A stretch of DNA of 54,640 nt from an uncultured Chthonomonas sp. (lineage in GTDB: Bacteria; Armatimonadota; Chthonomonadetes; Chthonomonadales; Chthonomonadaceae). The notes beneath the pieces are model-generated. The model did no database searches and was not told the DNA's origin. It saw nothing but the letters and a program-made list of their open reading frames with translations. The DNA lies in the NCBI GenBank assembly GCA_903859705.1, contig CAIONQ010000098.1:1-54640 (forward strand). Direction: 5' to 3'. Position numbers and translations under genes: made by a program. This document shows positions 30,382 through 45,588 of this stretch, in pieces (position 1 is the stretch's first letter; each line of letters opens with the position of its first letter).

Positions 30382-30888
30382 CTACAGCCCGAGTTCTGCG
30401 AGGCTCGTTGCTGTAATTAGCTTGACGGCAACGTCTCTGGCAGCATTAACCGACAGACCTTGAACCTTAACTTCGAGCTCCTCAGGAACTTCGCCAAAAC
30501 GTGCGGCTATTTGCGCCAGAAGCAACAACTGCATGCCTTCTTGTCGGCCTTCCTGACGGCCCTCTTTCCTGCCCTGCTTAATTGGTAACTTTTGCATTGG
30601 TGCCAGTGTTTTCACAGTTTGCTGCTCCTCGAAATCATTAACCCGGGCCATGTAAGTAGTCTCATACTGTTCGGTTTGTGGCATAAGCAGATCGATAAAT
30701 AGTATCAACTGCTCTATTTTCTCTTTAGAATGGGCACCTGTTTGCGCATACAGCGATTCTGCTATCCGCAGCTTCCACTCAAACCGCGACTCTGGTTGTC
30801 CATACGTTTCAAGCGACTTTAGATGCGCCATCACCACTACGGCAAATGGGTTGGTGCTTGCCTCCAGCATATTCCACTGGCTGCTGTT
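30382..30888 (-). pseudogene. Truncated Rpn/PD-(D/E)XK-type transposase with DUF4351-like tail
   Basis: The open frame encodes TNPFAVVVMAHLKSLET, FEWKLRIAESLYAQTG, LILFIDLLMPQTEQY and a lysine/glutamate-rich linker (KEGRQEGRQEG), ending with a short helical tail (LEVKVQGLSVNAARD, LAELGL). That order matches the second half of Rpn/YhgA-like proteins and DUF4351. The N-terminal nuclease core (about 130 residues with D, E-x-K) is missing. Reading in frame continues upstream as WNML to a TAA at 30889-30891, so the break lies at that point. It is likely a dead mobile-element fragment. Confidence 0.7.
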
Positions 30889-33257: not shown

Positions 33258-35399
33258 CTATTTTTTCGATCCCATAAGGATGGTTCGTGCAACCTTTTCA
33301 ATTTCTGCTTCTGTTACAGGGTACATGTGTACTAATTGGTCTTCGCCCGCTGTTACGACGTACTTACCATTTGGAGTGAAACGCGCTATGTTCATCTTTA
33401 GGCCATTTCCACGCACAACCAGTTCAGGATGCTTCAGGTTGAAGGGGGCAGTGACAAAGGAGGCTGGTAGCCGCCATATTCTGGTGCTTCCATCGGCCCC
33501 AGTTGTTACAAGACGGCGGCCATCAGGTGAAAACATGGCGGAGAAAAGTGGAATATCACTGGCATGTATTACGCCAACCAGATTGCCGTGGAGAGTACCA
33601 AAGAGGTACGCTTTGCCATCGCCATCCGCCGTTAGTACAAACCTTTCATCTGGTGAATACACTGCGCTCCACGGAAGATACTCTGTTGGATATCCACGGT
33701 GGCCGGGGAGTTGGTAGACTGCATCCACTGAACCCAAACTCGTGTTGTACCGATAAGCACTTCCGTCATTGGCAGCTGCCAGAATATGAGTTCCGTCTTG
33801 TTCGAAAACTGCACTTACGAATGCAGATCCACTCGGCAGAGACCACTGTGCAATTTGATGTCCTGTTACTGAATCCCATACCCTTACTGTCTTGTCCTGA
33901 GAAGCGGTTACCAACTTTTTATTGTCATGAGAGAAAAATACTGTCCACACCCTGCCTGTGTGCCCACTTAGCTGAACTGCTGTACGTCCACCTATCTCAA
34001 GTTGATCTCTGTTGATAACATGGACACTTCCATCTGCTGCAGCTATTGCAATTTTTGAACCGTCTGGTGAGTAGACTGAATGGTCTAAGGGAGATTTGTT
34101 AAACTGGATACTGCGAATTGGGTCATAACGAAATCCGCGACTTTCTACAGAATTCTCAATATTCTGATTCAGATGCCAGATATGCACCGCACCATCGATA
34201 GAAGCCGCGGTGAGTTCACTGCCATCTGGTGAGCAGTCTGCATAGTATATTGTTCCCCTGGCACCGTTGTAGGTCAGCTGATTCAGAAGCCAGATATCAG
34301 CGTATCCGAACTGAGTTGTGGTGACCAAAGTACGGCCAGACTTACTGAATTGCACAGACCTAGCATCTAGTGTGCGTGTAGCCAGGGTTTGCATTGGCTG
34401 CATCATCTCCGGAATGTACCAAACTTGTACATTACCACGGGCATTTGCAGCAGCGAGCCAAAAGCTATCACCAGAATCGTGTAGATCCTGAACGGTGCCA
34501 TAGGCACCGTGGTATCTACGTGCTTCCTTGCCCCATTGGCTTGGGGCGGCGGCTGGTCCATAGTATGATATTAAACCACCTTCCTGAGAGCCAACGAAGA
34601 TGAGCTCTGAGAAGTGTGAAAAGGCAACAGAAATTGGGTGGAAATTCTCTCCCTGTATGTTAGGCCGAATTGTCATCAAACATGCACCGGTTCGTGCATC
34701 CCAGACTCTTATGGACTTATCATGGTCCACCTGGAGACTATCTCCGATTGATACAATGTAACGGTCAGAACCAGCGACATCTGAAGAAAAAGATATGTTA
34801 GTAACCGCGCCTGAATGGCCACGCAATATAATACGTGATCCGTTGCTAACGTCCCAAACAATCGCAGTTGAACTATCACCGTTCGTCACCAAATATTTGC
34901 CATCTGCGGAGAGATCGGCTTGAGCAAGGGCTTCTGTTTTGCACTCAAATTCACGGATGAGTTTACATCTAAACTCCGGTTCCTCAAGGAAGTCCCACAC
35001 TTGAAAAGCTGCTATGCCCCTTTCACTCCGGCAAGCAGTGACGAGGCGATGGGCTTTAAATGCAAAACGAGCAACCGCTATCTGTGAGACGGCAAATGAC
35101 GATGGAACAACCGGGATCGACGCAACCAGCTTCCATGTATTTGTGTTGTAGATTTGTGCAGATCTTCCCTGCCCTGCAAGCACCAGGAATCGGTCATCAG
35201 AAGAGAGGCTGCCGGTGTTGAGCTTGCCGTCATGTTTGATTCTATGAATGCGATGTGCATCTGCAGTTACTGCGTCAAAGAGCGCGCGGTACATCGAACT
35301 AGGTGGCCCATGGCCAGATTGACGAAATCGATCGATAGCGGATATTCCAAGTTCAACTGCCTCACTCTCGTTGCCAGCTTGCTGAGCAAGCAACCTCAC
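33258..35399 (-). CDS. WD40 protein, 14 blades, probable C-terminal half of a split protein
   Basis: 713 residues from a GTG. I count 14 WD-type units ending in motifs such as STAIVWDVSNG, KSIRVWDARTG, GNVQVWYIPE, GYADIWLLNQ, GAVHIWHLNQN, KTVRVWDSVTG and GSTRIWRLPAS, which would make two seven-bladed propellers. WD40 propellers are protein-binding platforms. The frame remains coding-like upstream of the GTG (LDAARANNEQESERV, to 35453), overlapping the end of the ATPase gene in another frame, so the two were probably one protein. Without frameshifting, the GTG or reinitiation 19 bases after the ATPase stop would start it. Confidence 0.85.
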   Translation of the reverse strand: MRLLAQQAGNESEAVELGISAIDRFRQSGHGPPSSMYRALFDAVTADAHRIHRIKHDGKLNTGSLSSDDRFLVLAGQGRSAQIYNTNTWKLVASIPVVPSSFAVSQIAVARFAFKAHRLVTACRSERGIAAFQVWDFLEEPEFRCKLIREFECKTEALAQADLSADGKYLVTNGDSSTAIVWDVSNGSRIILRGHSGAVTNISFSSDVAGSDRYIVSIGDSLQVDHDKSIRVWDARTGACLMTIRPNIQGENFHPISVAFSHFSELIFVGSQEGGLISYYGPAAAPSQWGKEARRYHGAYGTVQDLHDSGDSFWLAAANARGNVQVWYIPEMMQPMQTLATRTLDARSVQFSKSGRTLVTTTQFGYADIWLLNQLTYNGARGTIYYADCSPDGSELTAASIDGAVHIWHLNQNIENSVESRGFRYDPIRSIQFNKSPLDHSVYSPDGSKIAIAAADGSVHVINRDQLEIGGRTAVQLSGHTGRVWTVFFSHDNKKLVTASQDKTVRVWDSVTGHQIAQWSLPSGSAFVSAVFEQDGTHILAAANDGSAYRYNTSLGSVDAVYQLPGHRGYPTEYLPWSAVYSPDERFVLTADGDGKAYLFGTLHGNLVGVIHASDIPLFSAMFSPDGRRLVTTGADGSTRIWRLPASFVTAPFNLKHPELVVRGNGLKMNIARFTPNGKYVVTAGEDQLVHMYPVTEAEIEKVARTILMGSKK

Positions 35400-35418
35400 T
35401 CGTTCGCTCTCTTGTTCG

Positions 35419-36900
35419 TTATTTGCGCGTGCTGCGTCTAACTTCTGCGGTCGTTACCGCACGATTAAGCTCCTGAAGTTTGGCTTCTGTACTTGCGATG
35501 CTCTTTAATAGAGCGACCTTCTCTCTGGCGAGGCGTGCTCGATCGGAGCGTGTTCGAACCGTAACACTCTCCGATTGTTGATATTGTGTTTTCAAATCTG
35601 TGAGCTTCTCTGTGAAAGACAAGATCTGGTGATGTAAGCCATCAACCGTGCGCTTCTGCTGTGAGATTTCCACGCGGTAACTGTGTGCCTGCCGCTCACG
35701 CAGCTCTCGTTGGCTCCAGGCAATTGCCAGGGATGCCAGGAGCGTGATCCAGATAGCACTGGCCCTTATGAATCCGGCGCGCAATGCGGCTTTTTGGCGT
35801 TTCTGTTCAGCATCAGGCATCGCACCTTTTATCCATGCTGAATCGAATACCGCTGAATAAATCCGATTCCTGACTACAACAGTTGCACCTTCGGCTGAGC
35901 TGAAAATTCGCACAACTCCAGAAAGCATGAGTGCCTGCACGAACCTGTCTGCAGGATCATATTTAAATCCCTGTTTGTTTGATATGATTTTGGAGTACTG
36001 AAACAAGACTTCGGGTGTATCTTGAGCGTACGCTAGAAGGCGCCGCTGGACTAATGCAAGGTTGTCTTCCTGAAATCGCTCACCCCGGCGCAAAAAGTTT
36101 TCTGTACAGCAATGATCTACATCGTGAATTGTACTAGCGGCGGTGGATACCAGTGCAGCGCAGAGCTTCTGACTGAGATATGGGTGCCCACTTGTCCAAT
36201 AGTACACTCGGTCTAATAAATGGGAGCACTTGTCTGGCAGACCGTTCTGAAGTATCCTCATTTCATTAAATGTAAAATCTGAGAGCTCTATCCTCGTACC
36301 GATATTAAATGGTGTAACCCGTGCATCGGAAATCAATTCCGAAGGTGCTGCCACGCCAATCAAGCAGAATTGAATATCCTTTGGTGTGTCGCTATTTTTG
36401 CGCAGGTTGTAACACGCTCGGATCGCAGCGAATAGCTCGTCAGCACTGAAATCCAGGCTTGCCACAGCATCTATCTCATCAATGAAAATAACGAGCTTGT
36501 GGCCGTACCTCTCAAGCGCTTCGTGTCTAATGCACTCAAACAGTCGGTTTACACAACCAAGCCTATGCCGTGTGTTCCAGTGGGCTTCTAGCTCGTCTTC
36601 AATTCCCAGCTGTTCTCCGATGCTTACTAGCAATCCGAAGTACCATTGTTCTACGGATAGGTTCTTTCCACTGACGCTAAGATCAAGTACGGCTACGCCA
36701 TAGCCACGTTGCCTCAGCGATTCCGCACACCTGACCATCAGGGAGGACTTCCCAACCTGTCTGCAATCCAGCACATAGCACAGTTTGCCAGCACAGATCC
36801 CTTCCAGTAAATCTGTGTCAGCTCTACGCACGATGTACGACGGAGCATCAATCGTTAGAGAGCCACCTGTAACATAGAACATTTGCGATTGAGGCATCAT
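35419..36900 (-). CDS. Membrane-anchored AAA-like ATPase with coiled coil
   Basis: Start: ATG 36900, forming ATGA with the previous stop; 493 residues. AAA-like (PF14516-type) domain: SYIVRRADTDLLEGI, Walker A DCRQVGKSSLM (K51) and Walker B KLVIFIDEID (D141, E142). A later LSDFTFNEMRIL and YYWTSGHPYLSQKLC are typical of this STAND-related family. One transmembrane helix is at about 377-395 (ASAIWITLLASLAIAW), then about 95 residues of coiled coil to the end. In related proteins the coil continues into WD40 repeats; here a stop intervenes at 35419-35421. It probably senses a signal through the propeller and acts at the membrane. Confidence 0.85.
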   Translation of the reverse strand: MMPQSQMFYVTGGSLTIDAPSYIVRRADTDLLEGICAGKLCYVLDCRQVGKSSLMVRCAESLRQRGYGVAVLDLSVSGKNLSVEQWYFGLLVSIGEQLGIEDELEAHWNTRHRLGCVNRLFECIRHEALERYGHKLVIFIDEIDAVASLDFSADELFAAIRACYNLRKNSDTPKDIQFCLIGVAAPSELISDARVTPFNIGTRIELSDFTFNEMRILQNGLPDKCSHLLDRVYYWTSGHPYLSQKLCAALVSTAASTIHDVDHCCTENFLRRGERFQEDNLALVQRRLLAYAQDTPEVLFQYSKIISNKQGFKYDPADRFVQALMLSGVVRIFSSAEGATVVVRNRIYSAVFDSAWIKGAMPDAEQKRQKAALRAGFIRASAIWITLLASLAIAWSQRELRERQAHSYRVEISQQKRTVDGLHHQILSFTEKLTDLKTQYQQSESVTVRTRSDRARLAREKVALLKSIASTEAKLQELNRAVTTAEVRRSTRK

Positions 36901-38141
36901 GACAGACACCTGCGTAGGTAGGTGAGATAAAGTGGGCAACGAACTGTTGTATGAGTCGGTGCCTCTCCGGCAAGAACTCCAGCACTTTTCAGTCGTGCAA
37001 ACACATCAACGGGGCAAGGTTTTCCCGAGATCACCATGCTAACTGCAGCCTCTAGCTCCGGTACTGCCTGCACGAACAACCGAACTCTAAGCAAGTGATC
37101 AGCAAGTACCCCTGTTTCTTGATCAGCTGTTGCTAGCAACTCTTCGTATGTTAATGAACCATTTGCCAGTAAAGACAGGCATCTTTGTGCGAGGAATGGG
37201 TGCCCTCCAAGGAGTCCATGTAGAGTGCGAATATCTGCCTCTTGCAGCACACCATCATAGCGTGCATTTAGGGTTTGTAAATCTGCTAGTGTAAAATCAG
37301 CTGTCAAAACACGAACACCAACGTTAAACGGTGATTTGTTTATGTCGCGGATATAATGGTGTGCCTCTGTGGCACACGCAAGTATGAGGCTCAAGCGATT
37401 CCATGGCTTTTGTGGTTCGAACGCACGCTTTTCGTGCCACGATCGAATCATGGCAAATAACTCTGTCTGCCAGTCACTGCCAAAAATACGATCGATACCA
37501 TCAAGTCCCCATAGTAATGGAGCTTTGCTTCTAGTGAGCACGTGTCTATGCAAATACCGTTCCAGATTAGTATGTGGACCAAGTGATGAATTCCACACGT
37601 TGTCGGGCATTGTGACAAGTTCTAGTTCTTCTGCTATCGAACGTGCCATCCGTAAGCACACGGATTCCATCGAGTGCAGATCGGCCTCAGAAAACTGGTC
37701 AAAATTGGTGACTAATGCATCAAAGCCGCATGTTCTGCTGTGCTGAATTCCTCGTGCCATCAAGGAGGACTTACCCGTTTGCCTTGGGCCTTTAATCAAT
37801 ACGAGGCTCTCATGCCGATCAATTGCTGCGAACACAAGGCCATCAGCATCACGCTGTATGTAATGGTTTGAAAGGACTGGCACAGCTCCACCTATTGGTG
37901 GGGTAGCTGGTTGAACTTCACATGCATGAATACTCTTATCCGTTTCTCTTATGCCTTTTCCCAATTCAACCATTAGCTGAGGTGGAGCGAGCTTATATTG
38001 TTGGTGAAATATCGTTGCGCATTGCGCGAATGTCCGCAACGCCGCCACGCGCTCTCCACAATCGACCTGTGACTGCATAAGAGCAATCCATGCCCACTCC
38101 TCAGCTGGCCGCCACTTAATATATCGATCAAGAGTCGTCAA
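36897..38141 (-). CDS. Truncated-BTAD/AAA-like ATPase, Walker B glutamate missing
   Basis: 414 residues from TTG 38141, overlapping the upstream stop by 4 bases (TTGA). Residues about 1-66 (RYIKWRPAEEWAWIALMQSQ, VAALRTFAQC) look like the end of a bacterial transcriptional activator domain (BTAD), without its winged helix. Then comes the AAA-like domain: Walker A KGPRQTGKSS (K124) and Walker B LLWGLDGIDRIF, where the residue after the aspartate is glycine instead of glutamate. It is a paralogue of the following gene, with the same later motifs (FTLADLQTL, LLGGHPFLAQRC). It may bind ATP but hydrolyse it poorly. Confidence 0.8.
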   Translation of the reverse strand: MTTLDRYIKWRPAEEWAWIALMQSQVDCGERVAALRTFAQCATIFHQQYKLAPPQLMVELGKGIRETDKSIHACEVQPATPPIGGAVPVLSNHYIQRDADGLVFAAIDRHESLVLIKGPRQTGKSSLMARGIQHSRTCGFDALVTNFDQFSEADLHSMESVCLRMARSIAEELELVTMPDNVWNSSLGPHTNLERYLHRHVLTRSKAPLLWGLDGIDRIFGSDWQTELFAMIRSWHEKRAFEPQKPWNRLSLILACATEAHHYIRDINKSPFNVGVRVLTADFTLADLQTLNARYDGVLQEADIRTLHGLLGGHPFLAQRCLSLLANGSLTYEELLATADQETGVLADHLLRVRLFVQAVPELEAAVSMVISGKPCPVDVFARLKSAGVLAGEAPTHTTVRCPLYLTYLRRCLS

Positions 38142-38458
38142 TGCTGTCTTATGATCACTTGCTGAAAGTGCACTTTCACAATAGCCTTACTTGCTTTTGT
38201 ACAGAGATCTCGTGTTCCATAGGTCGCAGGAATGTCCATATCGCCATAGGGAGACGCTGACTTGAAAACTACTGACTTTGATGCAACATGCGCTTTGTTG
38301 GCATTGTCCGCATGTCTATATGCTATTGCCCCGACTGATGCGAGTACCACAATCAGGACGAGCACAATGATAGCGCGAAAGGATCCACCCTGAGAAGTAG
38401 GATGTTTGCCTGTTGTCGCACCACGCTGGTCTCTCGACCTTGAAATAACTGTTGGCAT
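38138..38458 (-). CDS. Small single-pass membrane protein opening the AAA/WD40 operon
   Basis: 106 residues. A basic N-terminus is followed by one strong transmembrane helix (AIIVLVLIVVLASVGAIAY, about residues 29-47) and a 55-residue external or periplasmic tail with one cysteine. No known domain. The stop overlaps the next start (TTGA), so it is co-translated with the ATPases. GAGAGG about 12 bases upstream can serve as RBS. It could be the membrane partner or sensor of the complex; function unknown. Confidence 0.6.
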   Translation of the reverse strand: MPTVISRSRDQRGATTGKHPTSQGGSFRAIIVLVLIVVLASVGAIAYRHADNANKAHVASKSVVFKSASPYGDMDIPATYGTRDLCTKASKAIVKVHFQQVIIRQH

Positions 38459-41925: not shown

Positions 41926-42114
41926 GTAACAACCTTTCGTATGGCTGCGTTAATGGGTTAAGAAAATTCAGGTGGGCTGTAAGGTCGAGCTTAATCTGAA
42001 TTATATTGTGGCAATCCGAAATATCTCCGAACAAGGCTACTGAGGGAGGCAGACGTAGGGGTATTATGCAAACTCGGGTCTATTAAAGTTGCGTAAAGCA
42101 GGTGAGGTGAACGT

Positions 42115-45100
42115 TTGGGTGCCAAATTTCGGCTTGAAATAATTGCCGGTATTAAGTTGTTTGTATATAACTGCAACGTGCCCGTGTATGAGCGCGTGGA
42201 TATGAGAGGGCGCAAGGCGCTTCTGCTCTTAATTTACTTATATCTGCACGGACGAGAAGCGGTACCAAGAGATCGTCTGCTGGAGCTGTTTTGGCCGGAA
42301 CATGATGAGGGCTCAGCACGTGATAACCTATCCACAACTCTGGGAGTTGTAAAACGGACACTTGGCAAATTTGCCCCGGATGGCGAGCAAGTGATCAGTG
42401 CCGATCGTGATACTGTTACGTTAAATCATAATAAATTTTCTTCTGATTATGAGGACTTTGAGCTGCTCGTTTCCAGGGCTAATGAGTCTGCAAACCAGCC
42501 TGAACGCATCGCATTTCTTACAGAAGCTCTTGCAGATGGAATTAATAAACCTCTTGAAGGTGTTTACACAGAGTGGGCGGTGGAGTTTCAGGATTCCTTT
42601 ATGGAGAAGTGTTCAGGTGTTGCCGCCGCACTTTTACATCTCAATGCAAACACTGGAGATTTTGCCGCCGTTTGTGAAGTGGCGGATACTGGTATTCGGC
42701 TACAGCCATTTGATGAGCAGTTTTGGCGGGCCAAGATGCGTGCATTGGCAACTCTCGGCAGGCATACCGAGGCGATAGAAACCTACCAGAAACTCACATC
42801 GTTGCTTCGTAGTGAGTTGGATACACAACCCTGCAAAGCATCCATGGAATTGGCACAACGTATTCGTACAGCGCCCGGCCAGTTCTCTGAGCGAGCGCAA
42901 GAAATTACGGCTGGTTCCGATGCTCCACCACAGCCACAAAAGCAAGAAACCGTACAACGTATTGAAGGAAGTGTGCCAGCTCGCCTAACCTCTTTTATTG
43001 GTAGAGATAGCGAACGTGGTACGCTGCAATTGCTGCTAGAAAGTCCTGATAACCGCGCTCGGCTTATTACTCTAACTGGCCCGGGCGGTACAGGCAAAAC
43101 CAGGCTTGCTATCGAGGCCGCACACATCGTTGGGTCGAAGTTCTCGGATGGCGTTCTCTATATTTCATTGGCAGATGTTTATAGTGCTGAAGCTATTCCA
43201 CCGCTAATACTGCACAGTATCGGCGCTTCCGGTACCCAATCAGAACACCTGTATGAAGCCATTAACAATATACTGGGAGCACGCGAACTGCTGCTTGTGC
43301 TTGATAATTTTGAGCAGTTGGTGGAGGAAGCCTCCGGGTTCATTCGATCCCTGCTTGATCGGGTTCCCGGGATAACGATTCTCATTACATCTCGCATCCG
43401 GCTGGAGTTGGAAGGCGAGGTAGAGGTTCATGTATATCCATTGCCAATTCCACATAGCCAATATTCATTGGAGGCACTCTCCCAGTGCTCCAGTGTAAAG
43501 TTGTTTACTGAGCGCGCCAGTGTATCGGCAACTCGCTTCGAGCTCACCGACGAGAATTGCGTGATTGTTGGCCACCTATGCGACCGCCTTGAGGGAATAC
43601 CGCTTGCCATCGAGCTCGCTGCGGCGTGGTGCTCTGTGCTGACAATTGATCAGATACTCACCGGTATGGCGCAGCGCTTTGAGCTAATGAAAAGTAGGCG
43701 GCGCGATGTTTCAAACCGCCACAGAACTCTTTACGATACCATCGGTTGGAGCTACAGGCTTTTGCCGGCGAGCGCCCAGGAGGCCTTTCGGGCACTATCG
43801 GTATTTCATGGTGGCTTTAGTGTAGAACGGCTGCATGATCTATTGAATCGGATGCCTGTGGTGGCTGCCGCGGCAGATGCCAGTGCCGCAAATACAATTT
43901 CAACCCAATCCATTGGTATAGTAGCCGGTCTGGTTTTTGAAATACACGCACATTCGCTGATACGAGCCGAGGAAGCAGCTATTGGCGAATCAAAACAGAT
44001 GCGCTACAGCATGCTGGAATCGCTGCGGGAGTTTGCATGGGAACAGTGTGATGACGGCCAGCGTGCATTGCTGCATCAGCACCATGCTGCCTGCTTTCAG
44101 GCCTGGATCTATTCAATGCGCAGGGAGATGGATAGCGCCTCCGATACGCGTAAGCGAGAGATATTGGATGCCCTTGAACTTGAGATGGATAACCTGCGTG
44201 CGGCCTTACAAACGTTGCTAGATGGCAGTAATGATCCCTCCATAACAGCTCAGATGGCCCTCGATCTCGACTGGCTGTGGATGGTACGCAACTATGCGGC
44301 AGACCGCCGGATGTGGTCGTTCACTGTGCTGGAACGTTTGAAAAACAGCTCAATAAGTGAAGAACAGCTCGATTACTTAACAATAAATGCGGGCCATTTT
44401 CTGGAACGAAACATAATTGTTGAACTGGCCGGTGCCAGAATCCACTCTGCCAGAGCGCAAAATTCTCACCGCAGGCTTGCACATCTGTTAATGCAATACA
44501 CGGGTTTTACGGATGATACCGAGGAAAAGATTGCAGCTGCCACCGAGAGCTTAGAGCTCTACACGGAATTGCGTGATGACTCCAGGGCGAGCCTCGCCCG
44601 GGCATACCTTGCCGGGGTTCACACGCATATAGGTAATTACAGCCAATCCTTGCCACTTCTTGCAAAGTGTCTCCAGTATAGCCGCGATACTGGTGATGAG
44701 TGGAGCACTGCTGTGGTGCTGGCCGCGCATGGGGAAATAGCGGTTGTTCAGGGCAGAATGGCTGAGGCAATAGGGCTATTTACGCAGGCGTTGGCGTTCT
44801 TCGAGCGCATTCAATATCGGCAGCGGATAGGTGGCTTGAACTGCTGGCTGGCGGCCGCCAATGCAGCGCAGGGCAACCTTACAGATGCCGCCGCCAATTT
44901 GGAAATATATATAGAAGAGTTTGTGCGAGATGGCACGTTAACCCGGGTTTGGGAAACGGTGGAAATAGCAGTTCCTGCACTGTTGTGCCTTGGGCATGAT
45001 GCCGTTGCTGAACGTATGATGGAGTATGAAAAGGTGCTTACTGCGGCCTATCCGCATGGTCTCCAACACTATTTACGGGAGCTTACACGGCTGGATTTGC

Positions 45101-45588
45101 ATCAAAATAACCTGGATCGCGCTGTAGTGCGGCATAAGGAGTGGGAGGCATCGCTGGCTGCCAGTGACAACCCTATAGTGCAAGCAGAATGGCGGGTGCT
45201 TGGCACCGTGATTGCCTACAGGCTGGGCGACTTAGAAAGTGCACACCGGGCACTTAGAATGGCAATGCCTCGAATAGCTCGGGAGCACCTCTACATGCTG
45301 CTTTTGGCATGCCTCCCGGCCGTAGGTGCAATTGCAAACAGCATTGGTAGGCATGAAGATGCGGTTTTGTTGTTGGGAGCGTTTACAGGGCTGCATACCG
45401 CCCGTGGCCTTGTGCAAACAACCATTGATCAAACAAACTTTAAGCTTGCATGCGAAAAAGTACAGCGTGAACTCCCATCAGAATCCTATCACAGGTGCTT
45501 GCATGCTGGATCACGCCTGGGATTTGAAGAGGCGTGCCAGTTGGTTAACCGAACGCTGGCAAATTATGTGCAAAACCAGGATGTGTAA
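42115..45588 (+). CDS. SARP-like regulator: winged helix, BTAD, P-loop NTPase, TPR
   Basis: 1157 residues from a TTG (AGGTGAGGTGA upstream; an in-frame TGA at 42103-42105 excludes a longer start). Residues about 1-100 form a winged helix (RGRKALLLLIYLYLHGREAV, ARDNLSTTLGVVKRTL). About 110-255 is the BTAD with paired helices (WRAKMRALATLGRHTEAI). About 295-700 is an NB-ARC/STAND P-loop: GPGGTGKTRLA (K328), LLLVLDNFEQL, ILITSRIRLELEGE. The last 400 residues are TPR-like. Such regulators bind DNA when ligand-released from the ATPase lock. Single gene; signal unknown. Confidence 0.9.
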   Translation: MGAKFRLEIIAGIKLFVYNCNVPVYERVDMRGRKALLLLIYLYLHGREAVPRDRLLELFWPEHDEGSARDNLSTTLGVVKRTLGKFAPDGEQVISADRDTVTLNHNKFSSDYEDFELLVSRANESANQPERIAFLTEALADGINKPLEGVYTEWAVEFQDSFMEKCSGVAAALLHLNANTGDFAAVCEVADTGIRLQPFDEQFWRAKMRALATLGRHTEAIETYQKLTSLLRSELDTQPCKASMELAQRIRTAPGQFSERAQEITAGSDAPPQPQKQETVQRIEGSVPARLTSFIGRDSERGTLQLLLESPDNRARLITLTGPGGTGKTRLAIEAAHIVGSKFSDGVLYISLADVYSAEAIPPLILHSIGASGTQSEHLYEAINNILGARELLLVLDNFEQLVEEASGFIRSLLDRVPGITILITSRIRLELEGEVEVHVYPLPIPHSQYSLEALSQCSSVKLFTERASVSATRFELTDENCVIVGHLCDRLEGIPLAIELAAAWCSVLTIDQILTGMAQRFELMKSRRRDVSNRHRTLYDTIGWSYRLLPASAQEAFRALSVFHGGFSVERLHDLLNRMPVVAAAADASAANTISTQSIGIVAGLVFEIHAHSLIRAEEAAIGESKQMRYSMLESLREFAWEQCDDGQRALLHQHHAACFQAWIYSMRREMDSASDTRKREILDALELEMDNLRAALQTLLDGSNDPSITAQMALDLDWLWMVRNYAADRRMWSFTVLERLKNSSISEEQLDYLTINAGHFLERNIIVELAGARIHSARAQNSHRRLAHLLMQYTGFTDDTEEKIAAATESLELYTELRDDSRASLARAYLAGVHTHIGNYSQSLPLLAKCLQYSRDTGDEWSTAVVLAAHGEIAVVQGRMAEAIGLFTQALAFFERIQYRQRIGGLNCWLAAANAAQGNLTDAAANLEIYIEEFVRDGTLTRVWETVEIAVPALLCLGHDAVAERMMEYEKVLTAAYPHGLQHYLRELTRLDLHQNNLDRAVVRHKEWEASLAASDNPIVQAEWRVLGTVIAYRLGDLESAHRALRMAMPRIAREHLYMLLLACLPAVGAIANSIGRHEDAVLLLGAFTGLHTARGLVQTTIDQTNFKLACEKVQRELPSESYHRCLHAGSRLGFEEACQLVNRTLANYVQNQDV

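Follow-up and report, generated by a model that had tools for sequence, protein, structure and literature searches.

The locus described here spans positions 33258-38458 of a 54,640-nucleotide window, contig CAIONQ010000098.1 (forward strand) of assembly GCA_903859705.1 from an uncultured Chthonomonas sp. (Armatimonadota), and carries four open reading frames (ORFs) on the minus strand: ORF 1 at 38138-38458, ORF 2 at 36897-38141, ORF 3 at 35419-36939 and ORF 4 at 33258-35399. An initial annotation had read them as a compact four-gene operon encoding a small membrane protein, two paired ATPases and a WD40 sensor. We argue that the locus is likely to be a damaged copy of a conserved STAND receptor system made up of two genes. 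In this system, gene A, represented by ORF 2, encodes an output domain followed by an AAA_35 ATPase, and gene B, divided here between ORF 3 and ORF 4, encodes a second AAA_35 ATPase followed by one transmembrane (TM) segment, a coil and a WD40 (or TPR) sensor.

Pfam assigned PF14516 (AAA_35) to both ORF 2 (E 1.4e-68) and ORF 3 (E 3.6e-26), which agrees with the earlier view of the two as paralogues, and WD40 to ORF 4, while ORF 1 remained without any match. The AAA_35 domain of A lies at 36912-37889 (232 bits), with the Walker A motif GPRQTGKSS at 37764-37790, placed from alignment columns, and the Walker B motif LLWGLDG at 37497-37517, in which the catalytic glutamate is replaced by glycine. 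In B, the domain at 35908-36864 keeps both Walker motifs intact (A, RQVGKSS; B, LVIFIDEID), and directly after it come the predicted single TM segment (35722-35778, Kyte-Doolittle peak 1.74) and the start of the coil, in line with the AAA-TM-coil architecture first proposed for ORF 3. ORF 4 contains the end of the coil and a WD40 double propeller, for which the structural model shows 56 strands, that is, the 14 four-stranded blades that had been predicted, and matches in the PDB that include Apaf-1 and double-propeller proteins. The difference in Walker B state between ORF 2 (LLWGLDG) and ORF 3 (LVIFIDE) is likewise present but does not represent a rule of the pair, as 26 of the 41 A proteins retain the glutamate and 15, the window copy among them, lack it; catalytic loss as a general property of A was thus rejected. 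The Walker A lysine is kept in all 41.

The A/B family and its STAND core

The genome contains 14 AAA_35 domains, which form seven A/B pairs with the A type scoring high and the B type low, and profiles separate the two types cleanly, in the window copy for example with 402 versus 111 bits for B and 366 versus 99 for A. In the other six pairs, B is a single ORF of 1072-1283 amino acids with AAA_35, TM segment, coil and WD40 domain, and A is a single ORF of 520-593 amino acids with an N-terminal domain, apart from one A truncated at the end of its contig; of the seven, the window copy alone is in pieces. Two tandem A/B pairs stand on one 14.7 kb contig of this genome (L021, G000:C121, 2274-12748), beside an ORF at 242-1576 that looks transposase-like by eye, possibly reflecting duplication in place.

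A and B occur in numbers near 1:1 across 31 genomes of the class, and 57 of the 291 phylum genomes gave a match to the B profile at E 1e-30. Among named genomes, a scan found B in Acidobacteriota, Verrucomicrobiota, Planctomycetota, Armatimonadota, relatives of Beggiatoa and Thioploca, and Desulfonema, with A present at 51 of 80 B loci and at 28 of the 43 whose flanks each reach 2.5 kb or more. Pairs are also found on Cyanobacterial and Abditibacteriota plasmids; on a plasmid of Nostoc sp. HK-01, two genes with a 4-base overlap (NIES2109_59890/59900), for a 'TIR protein' and for a 'WD-40 repeat protein', score as A and B, respectively. Among 67 non-redundant pairs, A precedes B in 58 and the genes overlap in 37. 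The order is reversed in one pair of the present genome, where B lies upstream of A (L017, 4013-9302), and an Allocoleopsis plasmid has two tandem B-type genes and, close by on the opposite strand, an A-type gene, hence unequal A and B numbers (L198, 792-11116).

The two proteins form sister clades, each with a support of 100 in a quick tree, and their distance matrices are correlated with a Mantel r of 0.777, compared with 0.237 for the best of 2000 permutations. The correlation is also seen among the paralogues of this genome (r 0.853; 3 of 5040 permutations), so that species history cannot explain the co-evolution. A and B are thus ancient sister clades that are usually adjacent and co-evolve. 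This synteny favors a system, as had been suspected for the locus, although relatives do not keep the four separate genes together. No conserved third gene was found near the pairs, the biggest neighbor clusters comprising 10 ORFs in 9 loci, and a search of 50,697 phage records returned no relatives of B.

The domain that precedes AAA_35 in A is variable. In the class (n = 41), it was assigned as BTAD in 25 proteins, TIR in 7, a weakly matching cyclase in 4, a kinase in 2 and HTH_3 in 1, whereas A proteins from named genomes, mostly outside Armatimonadota (n = 27), carry TIR in 20 cases, kinase in 11 and trypsin in 2. Two A chains combine protein kinase, TIR and AAA_35 (L077, 3549-6491; L081, 382-2775), and the N-terminus of the A protein at L017 (4013-5794 on G000:C103) resembles a class III nucleotide cyclase by eye and not a winged helix-turn-helix (wHTH)/BTAD. 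The sensor of B appears to be swappable as well, since one B protein has TPR instead of WD40 (L098, 1990-4299).

A sequence search of solved structures returned P-loop fragments only, and fold comparison was needed to place the ATPase. The model of the A ATPase (mean predicted local distance difference test score, pLDDT, 92.7) matched PAB2304 (Z 21.5), SSO1545 (20.4), CED-4 (18.2), RPP1 (17.5) and Apaf-1 (15.5), and it aligned with PAB2304, CED-4, RPP1 and Apaf-1 over residues 15-350, winged-helix part included. This model identifies AAA_35 as a STAND switch. SSO1545 and PAB2304, the closest of the solved folds, are ATPases of the MNS clade. On the side of B, exactly one hydrophobic segment was found in 63 of 68 long proteins, right after AAA_35 and with none later, and its N-terminal side is the more positive one in 59 of the 63. 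According to the positive-inside rule, this charge bias suggests that the ATPase of B is inside and the propeller outside. For the family, then, the reading of a STAND-type sensor, switch and membrane anchor that had been offered for the locus is upheld by the STAND fold, the pairing, the co-evolution, the variable effector-like domains of A, and the TM segment and propeller of B.

Two breaks in the window copy

While the N-terminal output domain is present in intact A proteins, it has been lost from the window copy. In tblastn comparisons with 15 relatives, the frame of ORF 2 aligns upstream of its annotated TTG start at 38141 and reaches 38168-38186; the frame opens at 38186, with a TAA at 38187-38189 just upstream, and ends with a TGA at 36897-36899. 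A wHTH-BTAD profile of 267 positions, built from 21 N-termini, found only its positions 173-252 in the window copy, immediately upstream of AAA_35. Positions 1-172, which correspond to the wHTH and the first half of BTAD, had no match upstream of 38187 in a six-frame search, and a wHTH remnant in another frame was therefore discarded as an explanation. From the in-frame homology up to 38186 and the absence of these positions it follows that A is truncated: what remains (36897-38186, supported by tblastn, profile and Pfam) is the C-terminal half of BTAD and a complete AAA_35, and the winged helix and the first BTAD half, both complete in relatives, are missing. With 87 amino acids, the N-terminal part of the window copy is among the shortest of 70 complete A ORFs. 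No direct repeats indicative of recombination were found at the 38187 junction.

By the same argument, the last 17 codons of ORF 1 (38138-38189) are BTAD coding sequence read out of frame. The remainder of ORF 1 consists of unrelated sequence that includes a single TM-like stretch. The ORF has a weak coding signal, and its one weak match (E 8e-5, 27% identity) among 201 genomes of the phylum led us to reject it as a conserved small membrane component. ORF 1 is thus probably not a component of the system, and the separate membrane protein that had been proposed falls away.

A complete wHTH-BTAD protein is encoded 4 kb from the locus, at 42106-45585 on the plus strand; it carries NB-ARC/AAA and TPR domains, is SARP/AfsR-like, and its N-terminus is related to those of intact A proteins (106.9 bits with the wHTH-BTAD profile). 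On the other side of the locus, a minus-strand ORF at 30382-30870 ends in QGRKEGRQEGRQEG and by eye is like the tail of Rpn-type transposase-like nucleases; it is short and possibly another remnant.

Gene B is broken within the coil. ORF 3 (35419-36939, 402 bits with the B profile) contributes the 5' part and ORF 4 (33258-35399) the 3' part, the frame of the latter being open upstream to 35453. The B protein of L020 aligns with residues 40-532 in frame -2 down to 35431 and with residues 529-1277 in frame -3 from 35438; that of L111 shows the same overlapping change of frame at 35443/35447, and in L106, L108 and L109 the second frame resumes after a short unaligned stretch of coil. Since relatives align across the gap and no residues are lost, a single +1 frameshift accounts for the break, which lies in the zone 35419-35453 and is best placed at 35431-35447. 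The model of the WD40 part (pLDDT 85.4), begun upstream of the annotated GTG start of ORF 4, has a helix at residues 2-23 that spans this GTG at residue 19. The tail of B in the window (119 amino acids) is among the shortest of 88 complete B ORFs. In relatives, WD40 is fused to B as one reading frame, which leaves no place for a separate WD40 sensor.

The junctions between the ORFs are consistent with this picture. The stop of ORF 3 at 35419 and the GTG of ORF 4 at 35399 are 19 bases apart and do not overlap, and the overlap between ORF 1 and ORF 2 falls within BTAD coding sequence and is therefore not a gene boundary. Of the 4-base overlaps said to join all four genes, only the ATGA at 36897-36900, where the ATG of ORF 3 at 36900 overlaps the stop of A, is real, and it is the only plausible gene boundary among the three junctions. 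The four minus-strand ORFs do exist where they were drawn; as genes, however, ORF 3 and ORF 4 are a single frame in relatives and ORF 1 has no convincing relative. Instead of a compact four-gene operon, the window thus holds a two-gene unit broken at two places, relatives having A/B pairs only.

Intact or decayed

Given that the output domain of A is lost and that the sensor is detached from its membrane anchor, the window copy has most likely lost its signaling function and become a pseudo-operon. Its codon scores (0.035-0.051) are below those of the family paralogues in the same genome (0.083-0.158) and of other genes in the window (0.07-0.22). Further split copies were seen at L087, L089 and L104, and B matches with internal stops at G102:C7, G135:C245 and G139:C1; decay of A/B pairs may be frequent.

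Several observations weigh against a decayed copy of a two-gene receptor. Few conserved residues are altered in the window copy (5 of 59 in A, 7 of 103 in B), and ORFs 2, 3 and 4 are open over 415, 507 and 714 codons, so that the breakage may be recent, may stem from sequencing or assembly, or may have left parts that are still made. In addition, no A lies close to B at 15 of the 43 loci from named genomes that are flanked by 2.5 kb or more on each side, which implies that B can act without an adjacent A; these loci (L122, L129, L134, L151, L160, L168, L169, L171, L175, L176, L180, L185, L192, L194 and L195) are mostly from Verrucomicrobiota and hold either a solo B or a B whose partner lies elsewhere. 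Furthermore, the topology of B is predicted from hydrophobicity and charge only.

A sequencing or assembly error at the B frameshift, and perhaps also at the 38187 junction of A, would mean that the organism has an intact pair. A single base would explain the split of B, the ORFs are otherwise open over long stretches, and the genome is a draft of 179 contigs. However, the lesion in A is no simple indel, as about 170 wHTH/BTAD residues are absent from all six frames upstream, the B site lacks a homopolymer, and the codon scores fall below those of all paralogues, which makes such an error unlikely. A functional split that would yield a true variant with several subunits, in which ORF 4 would be made by re-initiation at its GTG or by programmed +1 frameshifting and ORF 1 would be a new membrane part, is very improbable in our judgment. 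A candidate ribosome-binding site (AAGAGAG) does precede the GTG and ORFs 2-4 are intact in conserved residues, but this layout was seen in no relative, the predicted helix continues through the GTG, ORF 1 lacks convincing relatives and ends in out-of-frame BTAD, and the low codon scores stand against it as well. Four independent genes were rejected on the basis of the A/B pairing, the in-frame homology of A past its annotated start, the frameshift in B and the lack of relatives of ORF 1. Reading the decayed A/B copy literally as four parts would prompt a search for a nonexistent complex, for breakage is what produced the apparent small membrane protein and the apparent free-standing WD40 sensor.

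Relation to known systems and possible role

We found no name for the A/B pair in the searchable papers, nor a description there of paired sister STAND proteins with a receptor across the membrane. The accession PF14516 occurs in no paper of that search, outside of which subscription journals lie, and text matches to AAA_35 were chance strings. The nearest published idea is that of the nSTAND2 two-gene counter-invader systems (Kaur et al. 2021, PMC8195603, Fig. 6C), in which two adjacent genes each encode a STAND NTPase from one and the same family. One of the two proteins bears variable effectors, and a hetero-multimer is proposed (PMC8195603). There, however, the NTP-binding motifs of one partner are eroded, whereas Walker A is kept in both proteins here; the effectors are GT4 and HEPN rather than TIR, kinase, BTAD, cyclase-like and trypsin domains; no TM sensor is mentioned, in contrast to the TM helix and WD40/TPR sensor of B; and the ATPase family of the present pair is PF14516. 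Comparison of nSTAND models with the A proteins gave one nSTAND6 match below the cut-off, the nSTAND2 model not being compared by name. The same paper names an 'Npun2340/2341 family' of MNS-clade STAND ATPases (PMC8195603), and the PF14516 pair may be this family. The two genes are probably adjacent, to judge from their consecutive numbers, and pairs of TIR-bearing A and WD40-bearing B do occur in Nostoc. A paired receptor mechanism is not described in the accessible papers.

Other parallels are partial. NLR and apoptosome proteins (CED-4, Apaf-1, RPP1) share the STAND core and winged helix, Apaf-1 also the WD40 sensor and plant TNLs the TIR effector, but the A/B pair divides effector and sensor between two sister ATPases, of which the one with the sensor is anchored in the membrane. 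EACC1 System 4 (2020, PMC7159879) likewise has two genes, a TM component and variable effector domains; its TM protein is small and has a caspase partner, however, and it lacks an AAA_35 pair (PMC7159879). MalT and the SARP/BTAD-STAND regulators also tie a STAND ATPase to transcription, and wHTH-BTAD is joined to an ATPase in both intact A copies and the window gene at 42106-45585, but these regulators are single chains with a TPR sensor and have neither a sister ATPase nor a TM sensor.

Based on the architecture of the family, we tentatively propose that the intact pair is a split transmembrane NLR-like receptor that would run from an outside propeller through the membrane to a mixed A/B STAND ring and on to a TIR, kinase or DNA-binding output. 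B would be anchored in the inner membrane, the ATPase facing the cytoplasm and the propeller the opposite side, and a ligand on the propeller would free the ADP-locked STAND module of B. The ATPase of B could then co-assemble with the sister ATPase of A, and co-assembly would activate the N-terminal domain of A, be it TIR, kinase, cyclase-like or a SARP-type DNA-binding regulator. The comparisons above show the pairing, the co-evolution, the STAND fold, the exchange of outputs and the presence of a TM segment and sensor on B; the outside position of the sensor, the A/B co-assembly and the release of output are the steps that we infer.

As to the role of such a receptor, TIR and kinase domains favor conflict and BTAD domains favor regulation. 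That intact A/B pairs form an anti-phage or conflict system, which would kill or arrest the cell through TIR NADase, kinase or protease activity, has in our estimate a little less than an even chance. The TIR, kinase and trypsin domains on A proteins from named genomes speak for it, as do the similarity of the STAND fold to CED-4, NLR and Avs-type NTPases, multiple copies per genome with differing outputs, and the plasmid copies in cyanobacteria. Against it stand the many A proteins of the home class with a wHTH/BTAD, and hence transcriptional, output, the weak domain-level matches that PADLOC gave on the window proteins, with no catalogued system, and the lack of conserved neighbors and of relatives in phage records. 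Alternatively, and with a slightly smaller chance in our estimate, the pair could serve ordinary environmental signaling, for example as a nutrient or envelope-stress receptor with SARP-like transcriptional output. This role would fit the predominance of wHTH/BTAD outputs in the home class, the predicted extracytoplasmic sensor and the precedent of MalT, an inducer-responsive STAND transcription regulator (PMC4381067), but TIR and kinase outputs predominate elsewhere, and the swapping of outputs on a constant core is typical of conflict systems.

Beyond the broken copy in the window, the A/B family is thus present several times per genome and combines a constant pair of sister STAND proteins with exchangeable TIR, kinase or transcription outputs, and the proposed split receptor, if true, would tie NLR-like switches to extracellular sensing.

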